DNA of 64,000 nt, from the NCBI GenBank assembly GCA_910575705.1, contig CAJTFG010000002.1:124001-188000 (forward strand), given 5' to 3'. Shown here one piece after another: positions 10,851 through 57,023 of this stretch. The stretch is from Erysipelotrichales bacterium. Its GTDB lineage: Bacteria > Bacillota_I > Bacilli_A > Erysipelotrichales > Erysipelotrichaceae. Both the position numbers and the translations under genes were made by a program. The notes under the pieces are model-generated. The model was not told the origin of the DNA and ran no database searches. It saw only the letters and a program-made list of their open reading frames with translations. The number at the start of each line of letters is the position of its first letter. Within the stretch, counting starts at the first letter, position 1.

Positions 10851-10919
10851 GCATTCGTGCAAAAAAACGCCATATATATTTTGACTTATAAAATAAAGGA
10901 GCCTCTGTGAGTTGTATAG

Positions 10920-10941
10920 AGCTATCATATGTATGATAGCT
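10920..10941. repeat. Perfect 10-bp palindrome beside locus A
   Basis: AGCTATCATA and its exact complement, separated by two bases, with no T run. Outer arms CTCTGTG/CACAGAG extend the inverted repeat. It lies 12 bases past the conserved QRPAL motif of locus A in the coding direction; locus B has a similar palindrome at the matching place. Confidence 0.8.
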
Positions 10942-11332
10942 ATCGAATATGCACAGAGCCGGACGCTGATAATCTTCCCAGGTTGGTTGAAAAAGTGCCC
11001 ATTTTCCTTGTACTTTTCCATATTTTAATACGAAGTATGCGGCGAACGACACCGGATGCTTGGAAGATAAATAAAAATGCTGCGCTACCGTGAAGGTAAG
11101 ATCTGCGGAGCCTGTACATGAAGTTTGACCTAAACAGTCTATGGATTCTACTGTTTTGATATAGTGGACATTAGAAATCGTGCTTTTCGCAGATGTAAAA
11201 TCTTAAAGTATTTACTCAAAGTTATATTTTTTAACCTACCTTTATAAGAAAATCATACCAGAAAACATAGGAATGCCTTATAAGATATGAATGTTGTATG
11301 AGATGAATGAGACATGCGCGAGTTCGATTCAT

Positions 11333-33107: not shown

Positions 33108-33435
33108 TTTCCTCTGTAGATATGATTATCAAGATACTTATCTTGCTATATTGTTGTATCTTCAGAGCCGGACGCTGATGCACATAAACATTTGTATCTT
33201 TGATGAAAGCTGCATTCCTATTTGTGGCAAACCAACCGAACTTACCGACATAATACGGTGAATGGCAAGTATTGGAGGACATCCAAAACATATCATGGTA
33301 AACATTTGTTACAAGATGATATCGTAGGAAAAAATCTGCGGAACCATTGCAGCCGAATTCGCCGGGACATCCACTGGTAGCGACTGTTTTAATATGGTGG
33401 GAATAAGAAATCGTGCCGATGCATGCATACTGTTG
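33076..33435 (-). pseudogene. Decayed small Cys-pair protein gene, locus B
   Basis: A 119-codon open stretch without a usable start; an in-frame stop lies just before QQYACIGTISYSHHIKTV. Homologous to locus A (10768-11202): ISxxHxIKTV, C-x5-C-x-GSAD, YxVxKxG and a terminal QRPAL are shared, while the centre differs in sequence and length. The codons CAG CGT CCG GCT CTG are identical in both. Past QRPAL the frame runs into a palindrome and the hpf terminator. The signal peptide expected for such a protein is absent in both copies. Family unknown. Confidence 0.45.
33130..33145. repeat. Palindrome beside locus B
   Basis: CAAGATA and its exact complement with a two-base centre, 17 bases past the conserved QRPAL motif in the coding direction of locus B. 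Same architecture as 10920-10941, but a different sequence. Confidence 0.75.
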
Positions 33436-37449: not shown

Positions 37450-37929
37450 ATGGCAAAGCAGTTATTCGATACGATGAAAAACGGATATAACCGCTATCAG
37501 GTTGAAGATTATCTGAATGAGCTTGAGGAAAAAACAGCCATGTTGAACCGTAAGGTAGAGATGTACCGCAAGCGCAGTGAGGAAGTGGAGCATCAGCTCA
37601 TTTTGATCAAGCGCAAGTATCAGTATGTCGTAGATAATCTTGCTGCGAAGGAACAGGCGGCTGACGATATGGCGCGGATGGCTATGCGGCAGTCAAATCG
37701 GATCGTGGAAACGGCGCAGGCGAATGCGGATGTGATCGTGAAAGAAGCGCTGATGTCGGCTAGGTCGATCCTTCTGGAAGTAGCAAAGATGGGGACGGAA
37801 GCTACCGAGCTGAAAGGTAATATGTATGAACAGCTGAAGATTATATCAAAGGCATTGGATGATTTTGAGATCCCGCCGCTGCCGGATATGGATCTGCTGA
37901 AAAAAGATGAAGATCAATTGCTGCGATGA
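37450..37929 (+). CDS. divIVA: DivIVA-family cell division/polarity protein
   Basis: 159 residues. The N-terminal lipid-binding motif is FDTMKNGYNRYQVEDYLNEL, followed by a long coiled coil (about 25-140) and the tail IPPLPDMDLLKK. It marks curved membrane at septa and poles and can place division and sporulation proteins. Start 15 bases after ylmH; GTGAGGTGAG is the RBS. Confidence 0.92.
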   Translation: MAKQLFDTMKNGYNRYQVEDYLNELEEKTAMLNRKVEMYRKRSEEVEHQLILIKRKYQYVVDNLAAKEQAADDMARMAMRQSNRIVETAQANADVIVKEALMSARSILLEVAKMGTEATELKGNMYEQLKIISKALDDFEIPPLPDMDLLKKDEDQLLR

Positions 37930-37934
37930 AGACA

Positions 37935-38140
37935 CGCTTCTGATGATGAATGCAAAGAGAGCAGGCGGCTGGTGAAAGCCTGAGAGGATTCATGGGAAGA
38001 TATCACTTCTGAGCTGGCAGTCCGAAGGATGGTAGGATTGCCCGTCTGCTTACGTTACGAGTACAGAGTGCATATCAAGCGATATGAACTAAGGTGGTAC
38101 CACGTGATCAGCGTCCTTAGATCAGGGCGCTTTTTTTTTA
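37935..38140 (+). promoter_or_regulatory. T-box leader of ileS (Ile specifier)
   Basis: The T-box sequence AAGGTGGTACCACG is at 38091-38104. CTAAGG (38089-38094) can pair with CCTTAG (38115-38120) as antiterminator, competing with the terminator AGCGTCCT/AGGGCGCT (38110-38131) and its eight T's. ATC at 38002-38004, in an internal loop closed by GAAG/CTTC, is the likely specifier codon and fits the downstream enzyme. Uncharged tRNA-Ile should switch ileS on. Confidence 0.92.
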
Positions 38141-54921: not shown

Positions 54922-54944
54922 AGAAGAACGATATTGAAGGAAAT

Positions 54945-54991
54945 AAAAAAACAGATGGGAATCGCGATGTGCGAAATTCCTATCTGTTTTT
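54945..54991. terminator. Bidirectional terminator between coaD and the reverse transcriptase
   Basis: Long stem built from AAAAACAGAT and ATCTGTTTTT with GGAAT/ATTCC inside; it marks the boundary between the core gene and the accessory cassette. Confidence 0.8.
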
Positions 54992-55008
54992 AGAATGCGC
55001 TTACTGAT

Positions 55009-56247
55009 TTATGCGGTTTTACGAGGAGCGTCATTTCTTTTTGAATTATCGAGCGGAGGGCTCTTTGTTTGTTTTTGCGCTTGTTGTCTTGCCTTTTGCT
55101 TTCGTTTTCGCTCTTCGATTTTTTTGATCGTGTGCTGTTTGCCTTTTTCCAGATTTTCAATCGTAAAATTTTGAAAGATCTTTTTCTGCAGCTGATATGT
55201 ATGCCCTTGCTTTAAATGTCCTTGTATGCTAACGATCTGTTTGTTGATGGTTTCTAGGTCTGTACGTCCACAATAGTAATCGTATTTCATTTTATTGAAT
55301 TTACGCTGCAATCTTTTTTTGGCGCTTTTTCTTAGGCGGCGGATCACTTTTCCGCTTTCGGTGACATAGAAATGAAAGCCGATAAAATCGATTCCTTGAG
55401 AAAGGGCAGCCATTTCGGTTTTCTCATTAAAACGAAGATGCAGTTTGTGCTCGATAAAAGATTCCAAGCGAAAACGGATCTCCTTGAGCTTTTCTTTATC
55501 TTCATGGATCAATACCATATCATCCATATAGCGGATATAATATTTTATCCGCAGTTCTTCTTTGATGAAATGATCCAGGGGATTCAAATAGTAAAGAGCG
55601 AGCACTTGAGAGACCAGATTGCCTTGCGCCAGTCCGGTACCATTTTCATTTGCATAGCTGTCGATGTACATGTCAACCATAGAACGTATTTTTTCATCCG
55701 TAAATTCTTTGGCGATCAACTTCTTGATGATGTCATGATCGATGCTGGCAAAATAGCTTTTGATATCCGCTTTCAGGAAATATCCCTTATTGCCGTGCTC
55801 CTTATAAAATTTTACCAGGTGGGCCGTCAGTCGTTTTACCGCAAAATTATTTCCTTTCTCCTCCTGGCAGGCTACGTTGTCATAAATCAGTTTTTTTGAG
55901 ATTTGAGGGATTAGGACTTCATCGCAGATGGCATGCTGAATCATACGATCGCGATAAGATAATGTCTGAATCTCTCTCTCTCTTGGCTCATAGACCAAAA
56001 ATTTGCGATACCCATCAATCGCATATGTTCCGCTTCTTAGTTCATCTTGAACTTTCATGAGATTTAATCCGAGGTTCAATTCAAATTCCATGACCTCACG
56101 TTTGTTCTTTTTCCCCCGTTTTGCCTTTTGATGTGCTCGGTATAAAGCAGAAAATTCTGTCATGCGTTGAAAATCATCTTCGATGATCTCATCGATGATC
56201 GGCTTTTTTGTTTTTTCTGCTGTATTCCGATTGATGATATCTTCCAT
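55009..56247 (-). CDS. Reverse transcriptase (DGR-like or unknown-group RT)
   Basis: 412 residues. RT motifs: YEPREREIQTLSYRDRMIQHAI (finger/motif 0-1), LKADIKSYFASIDH (motif A with catalytic Asp), GLAQGNLVSQVLALYYLNPLDHF (motif B), YIRYMDDMVLIH (catalytic YMDD), IDFIGFHFY (motif D/E). After residue ~300 come a basic thumb-like region and a Lys/Gln/Arg-rich tail. There is no maturase X, endonuclease or primase domain, so it is not a group II intron RT. Motif B is QGNxxSQ: SQ is shared with DGR enzymes, but the leading Gln is the residue DGRs usually replace with Ile/Val/Leu. RBS AGAGG; twelve bases after the Avd-like gene, so one operon. Confidence 0.93.
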   Translation of the reverse strand: MEDIINRNTAEKTKKPIIDEIIEDDFQRMTEFSALYRAHQKAKRGKKNKREVMEFELNLGLNLMKVQDELRSGTYAIDGYRKFLVYEPREREIQTLSYRDRMIQHAICDEVLIPQISKKLIYDNVACQEEKGNNFAVKRLTAHLVKFYKEHGNKGYFLKADIKSYFASIDHDIIKKLIAKEFTDEKIRSMVDMYIDSYANENGTGLAQGNLVSQVLALYYLNPLDHFIKEELRIKYYIRYMDDMVLIHEDKEKLKEIRFRLESFIEHKLHLRFNEKTEMAALSQGIDFIGFHFYVTESGKVIRRLRKSAKKRLQRKFNKMKYDYYCGRTDLETINKQIVSIQGHLKQGHTYQLQKKIFQNFTIENLEKGKQHTIKKIEERKRKQKARQQAQKQTKSPPLDNSKRNDAPRKTA

Positions 56248-56259
56248 TGCGACCTCTTA

Positions 56260-56679
56260 TTATGATGGCAAATCCAAAGATTGCTGCGAATTCTTTTTCA
56301 TGATTTGCTTATGCTTGGCTTCATCACTGCGCATCCATCCAACGATCAGATTTAAACAATCATAGGTGTATTTGGATATATTGGCATAGTGTTTAGGAAG
56401 AATGCATTGCTGTTCTTTCGCAAACAGTGCCAGATAGGCGAGAAGCTTTAGCGTCGTTAATGCTTCGGACTGATAATTCCATCGTCTTCGATAAGTCTCC
56501 TTATCGATGATCTTTACTTCATTTGCTTTGTAAACCAATTCAATCAAAGTCAATGAGTAGTTCTGCATTCTGGATGTAAGAGTAAAACGAAACTTTTTTG
56601 GTGCGTTTTCTGATACCTGAAATATATAACTGCTTAAGTCTTTGATTTTTGTGGTAATTGTCAAATCGTTTAGTTTCAT
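56260..56679 (-). CDS. Avd-like four-helix-bundle protein
   Basis: 139 residues, predicted nearly all helical after a short N-terminal strand. SYIFQVSENAPKKFRFTLTSRMQNYSLTLIELVYKANEV, then LTTLKLLAYLALFAKEQQCILPKHYANISKY, and the end LNLIVGWMRSDEAKHKQ follow the layout of Avd (accessory variability determinant) and 23S-IVS four-helix proteins, including a closing GW. Avd forms a basic pentamer that binds RT and nucleic acid in DGRs. The start at 56679 has AGAGGA upstream. The assignment is by pattern and by the adjoining RT. Confidence 0.7.
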   Translation of the reverse strand: MKLNDLTITTKIKDLSSYIFQVSENAPKKFRFTLTSRMQNYSLTLIELVYKANEVKIIDKETYRRRWNYQSEALTTLKLLAYLALFAKEQQCILPKHYANISKYTYDCLNLIVGWMRSDEAKHKQIMKKNSQQSLDLPS

Positions 56680-56713
56680 ACAAAAATCCTCTTTTCTGGT
56701 ATTTTCTTTTGGT

Positions 56714-56745
56714 AAAATAAAAATGCAAGACAAATGTCTGTGCAT
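56714..56745 (-). terminator. Intrinsic terminator between the predicted RNA and the Avd-like gene
   Basis: On the minus strand, ATGCA-C-AGACA pairs with TGTCT-TGCAT (one bulge), followed by TTTTATTTT. Read-through would be needed to express Avd and RT from the upstream promoter. Confidence 0.7.
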
Positions 56746-56807
56746 CTTGCTCATACCGATGTGTGAATCTTCCTTTTCTTCCTCACCTAAAGATAGGGGA
56801 TTCACAC
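56714..56807 (-). ncRNA. Predicted ~95-nt structured RNA upstream of the Avd-RT genes
   Basis: On the minus strand a -10 TATAAT (56819-56814) places the start near 56807, at the first base of a ten-base inverted repeat (arms 56799-56808 and 56760-56769, TGTGTGAATC and its complement). The 29-base loop holds a small CCTA/TAGG hairpin and a purine-rich stretch (GAGGAAGAAAAGGAAG). The unit ends in an intrinsic terminator 30-odd bases before the Avd start codon. No convincing short ORF with an RBS fills it. Confidence 0.55.
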
Positions 56808-56813
56808 AATGTA

Positions 56814-56865
56814 ATTATAATTCATGTGTTTTAAAAAGTATATAGTTTTTTACATATTATGTTAA
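56814..56865 (-). promoter_or_regulatory. Promoters of the RT cassette
   Basis: Two overlapping candidates on the minus strand: TTAACA, 17 bases, TATACT (56865-56837), and a perfect TATAAT (56819-56814) with a weak -35. The surrounding 56810-56930 is very AT-rich, unlike the core genes around it. Confidence 0.55.
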
Positions 56866-56992
56866 AAAATTAACAATTTTAATATAATTTATGAAAAATT
56901 TGTAAAAAAATATAAAATGATATTGTCGGATCGCTTTGGGACATGCGCCGTACATATCGGGGAAAAGTATGGGATTTCTTTAGCGGTTGTGC

Positions 56993-56998
56993 TATAAT
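56993..56998 (+). promoter_or_regulatory. -10 element for the 57.0-kb membrane protein gene
   Basis: TATAAT with an extended TGC, 25 bases before the start codon. No clear -35. Confidence 0.5.
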
Positions 56999-57023
56999 AC
57001 AAAACAGATAGAGAGGAACGAAT

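Follow-up and report, generated by a model that had tools for sequence, protein, structure and literature searches.

What a reverse transcriptase (RT) and an Avd protein may be doing at a site that shows no TR and no VR was the question raised by one locus in the window, the 64,000-nucleotide stretch of DNA analysed here. The initial annotation had described a YMDD RT with a helical Avd-like protein 12 nt before it, and both proteins were borne out. The RT gene (window 55009-56247, minus strand, 412 aa) encodes a protein with the catalytic motif YIRYMDDM, which matched RVT_1 (1.9e-16), kept its catalytic residues and gave a confident predicted structure. The avd gene (window 56260-56679, minus strand, 139 aa) lies upstream of it across the 12-nt gap. 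Its product scored 46.5 bits against Pfam bAvd (cut-off 40) and 1.7e-21 against the PHROG family "Avd protein of DGR", retained the Avd core residues, and was modelled by AF2 as a four-helix bundle (pLDDT 91.9) that matches the solved BPP-1 Avd.

The lineage of the RT was established by profile, structure and tree comparisons. PHROG_1423 was matched at 2.7e-111, and the top PDB match was the BPP-1 DGR RT (8ub7), both by sequence (3.6e-43) and by fold (1.3e-22). In a tree of 65 RTs, drawn without UG/DRT members, the RT was nested within two well-supported DGR groups (97/89 and 100/98), its closest neighbours being the RTs of G150 and G547. The group II intron RTs formed a separate clade (100/100). 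Its branch length in this tree (0.77) resembled those of its neighbours (0.70 and 1.0) and therefore gave no sign of decay. Scores against the maturase model TIGR04416 (104 bits, cut-off 300) and against retron_St85 (48.8 bits, cut-off 235) fell below threshold. The PADLOC models UG17 (2.3e-27) and UG4 (2.5e-26) were matched less well than the general RT model (2.6e-39); these matches are what any RT would give, and those to DGR enzymes are far stronger.

The motif (I/V/L)GxxxSQ is diagnostic of DGR RTs, as opposed to QGxxxSP in other RTs, and has been proposed as the source of their adenine infidelity (PMC3521204). In the window RT this stretch reads QGNLVSQ (complete motif 4, GLAQGNLVSQ; DGR form, GxP(I/V/L)GNxxSQ), with SQ retained and Q replacing I/V/L. 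Among 170 aligned RTs the position was occupied by I, L or V in 152 and by P or T in 8 other DGR-type RTs; Q was confined to the window RT and nine group II intron RTs, and no other of the roughly 160 DGR-type RTs had it. The position is presumably that of I181 in the BPP-1 RT, where substitutions alter adenine mutagenesis. The closest DGR relatives (G150, G547 and the L001-L017 group) have motif 4 of the usual DGR type. No ortholog with Q was found in the family, order, class and phylum samples, nor in phages and plasmids, for part of whose matches the motif was read. Although group II intron RTs share the Q, they have SP where the window RT has SQ, and the window locus holds neither an intron RNA nor a maturase match above the cut-off.

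No TR/VR had been visible to the initial annotation, and none was recovered here. A scan of 12 kb around the RT, positive for most of about 118 relatives, gave no pair. An exhaustive ungapped scan of positions 55000-57000 against the whole genome (1,845,098 bases) also gave none, and no DGR-like pair was found in a self-comparison of the genome, which recovered most positive-control DGRs. A TR/VR acting in trans was considered and ruled out by both genome scans; the A-biased pairs that were seen proved to belong to the cassette family described below. Nearly all members of L001-L017 have the TR between avd and RT and the VR downstream, and the G150 fragments encode DGR-type target proteins. 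In the window, the spacing in which relatives hold the TR has collapsed to 12 nt. The description of the locus as neither a retron nor a classical DGR was sustained, as Avd is kept and TR/VR are absent. What had been named in advance as speaking against it was the combination of an RT firmly among the DGRs with a TR/VR pair in another part of the genome; the first half of this was obtained and the second was not. The locus descends from DGRs; we do not claim membership for it, as both TR/VR and motif 4 fail. The RT/Avd pair may work like a DGR without mutagenesis.

Upstream of avd the initial annotation had placed a promoter, an RNA and a terminator. The sequence TTAACA-N17-TATACT (window 56837-56865, minus strand) is promoter-like as a consensus match only, at 10 of 12 positions. 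It is followed by a predicted structured RNA of about 110 nt (window 56722-56830, minus strand), the boundaries of which were set from the promoter and hairpin, with the annotated 10-bp stem on the outside and then a terminator-like hairpin before avd. The minus strand of 56705-56830 folded with an MFE of -35.6 kcal/mol (z = -4.8), and 0 of 200 shuffled sequences were as stable. Upstream of avd in the nearest DGRs z ranged from -2.1 to +1.5, and no comparably stable RNA was present. The fold and its ATTTTTATTTT tail suggest that the element ends in a terminator, a hairpin that the consensus terminator scan did not list. No match was found in Rfam, and no ortholog of the RT/Avd unit turned up in which the RNA could be followed. 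The RNA may be a leader or attenuator, or an RNA partner of the RT/Avd complex. Two further identities, a relocated DGR spacer RNA and a partner of the cassettes, were rejected, since neither sequence comparison nor duplex energies were significant.

On the other side of the unit, an inverted repeat with T/A tracts (window 54944-54992), read directly from the sequence and not listed by the scan, lies between coaD and the RT and probably serves as a terminator in both directions. Three relatives have an empty site at which coaD is followed, after 120-150 nt, by a homolog of the 57024 gene. The RT/Avd unit is therefore an insert of about 2 kb flanked by core genes, in keeping with the position first described. 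It has no defence or effector genes as neighbours. Elsewhere in the window a T-box leader was detected (37914-38121, 104.7 bits).

The same genome (G000) contains a large family of short frames of the form TIS...QRPAL, here called cassettes, of which 125 were recovered with a strict pattern and 133 with a relaxed one. Their 61 clusters are distributed over contigs C1-C4; in each of the 34 clusters with more than one member, all members point the same way. None of the silent cassettes belongs to a gene having a start; a co-oriented gene upstream is not consistent (71 of 125). Frames were intact in 133 of 136 units bounded by the 15-mer described below, against an expectation of 1.5% for shuffled cores, and so the silent copies are in use or arose by very recent copying. 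The window contains two silent cassettes, both on the minus strand and both ending in CAGCGTCCGGCTCTG. Cassette 1 (10954-11184) encodes STISNVHYIKTV...WEDYQRPAL and is followed at 10902-10953 by the hairpin ATAGCTATCAT-ACAT-ATGATAGCTCTAT, of which a compensatory variant exists, and an ACAGAGG box. Cassette 2 (33163-33414) encodes TISYSHHIKTVA...YVHQRPAL and is followed at 33111-33162 by the hairpin CAAGATAAGTATCTTG and the same box.

The only expressed cassette forms residues 324-400, the variable segment, of a 6858-aa frame (G000:C3:176534-197107, minus strand) that encodes a giant, repetitive surface protein; the frame opens with a signal-peptide-like stretch and closes with a membrane tail. 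The expressed cassette recurs without a mismatch, over 247 nt, in the silent cassette at C1:632805. The cassette system is in itself well supported. The RT/Avd unit is adjacent neither to cassettes nor to the expression locus. Directly upstream of the giant-protein gene is an ECF-like sigma factor gene (C3:197181-198257). The expressed protein looked by eye like a DUF6273 target such as those of G150; this identity was dropped, as Pfam and profile comparison did not support it. Cassettes compared with VR domains of the nearest DGRs gave a weak profile match (E 0.0033 in one comparison, probability 10%), and the RPAL-coded target end is common to cassettes and the VRs of L001-L015.

Both ends of the cassettes are conserved. 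At the 5' end GC followed by ACGATTTCT is shared, the conserved end being the 11-nt GCACGATTTCT. The last 15 nt are the GC-rich 15-mer CAGCGTCCGGCTCTG, present in 110 exact copies; across 125 cassettes, 13 of its 15 positions are at least 99% conserved, even where a change would be synonymous, while the preceding bases vary freely. Behind the 15-mer there is nearly always a hairpin with a stem of 9 bp and a loop of 4 nt, followed by (AT)ACAGAGG. Covariation was measured in the 63 flanks of the same architecture, in which the hairpin stands at a fixed distance: 93.5% of the pairs were standard and 82 both-side changes were counted, where the maxima in shuffled data were 84% and 40. With the partner strand slid as a control, pairing did not exceed 53%.

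The target of the BPP-1 DGR consists of an IMH with a GC-rich stretch and, 4-34 bp downstream of it, a hairpin with a 7-10 bp stem of free sequence and a 4-nt loop, and only about 8 bp of homology are needed on the 5' side (PMC3240598). This plan, a GC-rich end with a downstream hairpin, was found at the silent cassettes and not at the expression site, where the 15-mer is present and the hairpin absent. The hairpins at the silent sites have AT-rich stems and ARGY-like loops, whereas those of phage DGRs have GC-rich stems and GRNA loops. Nearly every silent site also has the CAGAGG box, which lies 21-22 nt past the centre of the hairpin (for example window 10902-10908); the expression site lacks it.

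Cassettes have been copied between these sites with sharp limits. Several distant pairs have cores identical over 228-237 nt between unrelated flanks and different hairpins, and hence the sites stay in place and the cores are swapped. Identity stops 0-2 nt from the 15-mer end in nearly all pairs and starts 2-4 nt (or 17-19 nt) before TIS; in one exceptional pair (C1:489529 and C1:621966) the hairpin is also shared, to +59. The upstream constant sequence of the expressed gene extends into 17 of 124 silent cassettes for 19-59 nt with graded 5' ends, while its downstream sequence extends for more than 4 nt into none of the 124. Twelve of these 17 end at the same 19 nt and share further flank among themselves, and so are not independent. 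A fixed 3' edge with a ragged 5' edge is what homing of cDNA would give. The mismatches between near-identical cores are mostly transitions with no A bias, unlike DGR mutagenesis. Other movers were tried and rejected. Three recombinases were found in a search for the tyrosine class, none of them near the RT or the expression locus, and integron-like attC sites, suggested by the hairpins, were set aside because the copied cores stop at the 15-mer and not within the hairpin.

We consider the chances evenly balanced that the DGR-derived RT/Avd copies whole cassettes faithfully; its role in the copying, the fidelity and the direction are inferred. The pair has lost the TR/VR of its DGR ancestry and probably also the adenine-mutating trait. 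It would make cDNA from a putative cassette-bearing RNA and home this cDNA, unmutated, into cassette sites. The GC-rich 15-mer would act as the IMH that fixes the 3' end, the hairpin behind it would stand in for the hairpin of DGR targets, and the short 5' homology would come from the 11-nt GCACGATTTCT end. Because the hairpin accompanies the silent sites and is missing from the expression site, the silent sites would by DGR rules be recipients, in which expressed cassettes are archived; since the reading frames are preserved, silent cassettes would also serve as donors for the expression site. The two directions could coexist, should the expression site also receive cassettes by gene conversion or homing.

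Put more generally, this would be a third DGR-type mode, in which an RT that regained the residue of faithful RTs carries out template-guided retrohoming of pre-diversified cassettes between more than 130 silent sites and one expression site, recalling or archiving variants. The retroelement would then run a memory of cassettes for a surface protein and would not be a mutator. This wider reading is offered tentatively, as one that falls slightly short of an even chance. The first suggestion of a genome-editing role came near to the present proposal, with the difference that the likely substrate, silent cassettes of a surface protein, lay outside what that annotation covered.

The anatomy of the sites and co-occurrence in one genome are suggestive of a link between RT and cassettes. 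Against copying by the RT weigh the missing hairpin at the expression site, the AT-rich stems and ARGY-like loops, the inconsistent placing of silent cassettes behind co-oriented genes, and the weakness of the profile match to VR domains. Among 273 genomes of the family, cassettes were found in one, the same genome that holds the window RT, which likewise was found in one of the 273; the sample holds no second species of that genus, and genome-specific traits would co-occur in any case. The cassettes were found in none of 24 genomes with other matches to the window RT, mostly DGR-type, in a search whose sole positive control was the source genome itself, within the search of 273. The pattern of 15-mer and hairpin was absent from viral contigs.

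The main rival to copying by the RT is gene conversion of the RecA type, as in Neisseria pilE/pilS and Borrelia vls, which would run the library while RT/Avd would be an unrelated, recently acquired orphan with another role or none. A single expression site served by silent cassettes is the classical layout of such systems, the 133 intact frames show that the cassettes are used, and the co-orientation in all 34 multi-cassette clusters fits tandem duplication. The conserved ends, together with the upstream 17-59 nt that match in 17 cassettes, could equally serve as homology arms, and RT/Avd is unlinked to cassettes and expression locus alike. However, most silent sites share just 11 nt at the 5' end and 15 nt at the 3' end, which is short for RecA-type exchange, and cores of 228-237 identical nt nonetheless move with exact edges. 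Gene conversion also has no need of a covarying hairpin that occurs at silent sites only. We rate it as less likely than copying by the RT, though a serious contender.

Decay of the RT/Avd unit was also weighed. A DGR remnant, from which TR and VR are gone and in which RT/Avd is drifting or already useless, would account for the absence of TR/VR from the whole genome, for the altered diagnostic residue and for an avd-RT spacing that is down to 12 nt in the place of the TR of relatives. We consider it unlikely, as both frames are intact with their catalytic and Avd core residues and confident structure models, the branch is about as long as that of the nearest DGR RT, and the substitution goes specifically to the residue of other RTs. 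An RT/Avd/ncRNA system of retron or DRT type with the upstream RNA as its template has in its favour a stable RNA with a promoter and a terminator-like end, and the reliance of DRT2, DRT9 and DRT10 on neighbouring ncRNAs described in PMC12596737 and PMC12632851, but it is very improbable for an RT of the DGR clade, apparently outside the retron and DRT families, whose RNA lacks an Rfam match and which has no effector or defence genes nearby. The defence role first suggested for the locus is not supported, the best matches being DGR enzymes and not those of retrons or DRT systems.

With DGRs of the BPP-1 type (nearest, L314 and L217 of G150, L001-L017 and phage nd12) the present system has in common the lineage and fold of its RT, the Avd protein, and cassette sites in which a hairpin stands behind a GC-rich end. 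In contrast to them it lacks TR/VR and adenine-biased differences, has Q for I/V/L in motif 4 and avd directly next to the RT without an intervening TR, and has many ready cassettes where DGRs have a single template. It resembles Neisseria pilE/pilS and Borrelia vls in having a single expressed surface gene, variable in one segment, alongside numerous silent cassettes that lack a start; one of these is identical to the expressed copy. Here, however, about 133 cassettes in 61 clusters are spread over most of the chromosome, each silent site has a covarying hairpin, the conserved ends are very short, and a DGR-type RT/Avd is present at an unlinked position; for vls of the Borrelia type strain, PMC3585125 gives 15 silent cassettes. 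Retrons and DRT systems likewise pair an RT with a nearby structured RNA, but the locus described here has what appears to be another RT lineage, an Avd and no effector gene.

If the proposal is true, the two halves of DGR function are separated and homing proceeds without mutagenesis, a purpose is found for a DGR RT whose active site is not that of a mutator, retroelements are tied to antigenic variation from silent cassettes, and nature offers a faithful homing system that takes many templates and has clear cis signals. Should the RT prove unrelated, the library of about 133 silent cassettes with intact frames, each site with its covarying hairpin, would still be an unusually large antigenic-variation system, undescribed in the literature searched. 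No description of the combination of RT/Avd with silent cassettes was found in that literature, which comprised open-licence papers.

Some further observations were made on the DGRs used for comparison. The variable domain lies at the N-terminus of a predicted AAA ATPase in L001 (7057-9159), L005 (4212-6431) and L012 (7111-9330), and on TIR plus DUF6273 proteins in L314 of G150, which suggests that the targets of the nearest DGRs are DGR-diversified conflict proteins. In L001-L015, about 20-45 nt behind the VR end and within coding sequence, stems of changing sequence (CCTC/GAGG, CCCAC/GTGGG and CCCC/GGGG) were seen by eye around a GAACGGAG-like loop, and are perhaps the DGR target hairpin of this group. 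The DGR-type RT frame of L199 (G547:C70) contains three TAG and two TGA codons, and its source is perhaps a phage with a changed genetic code.
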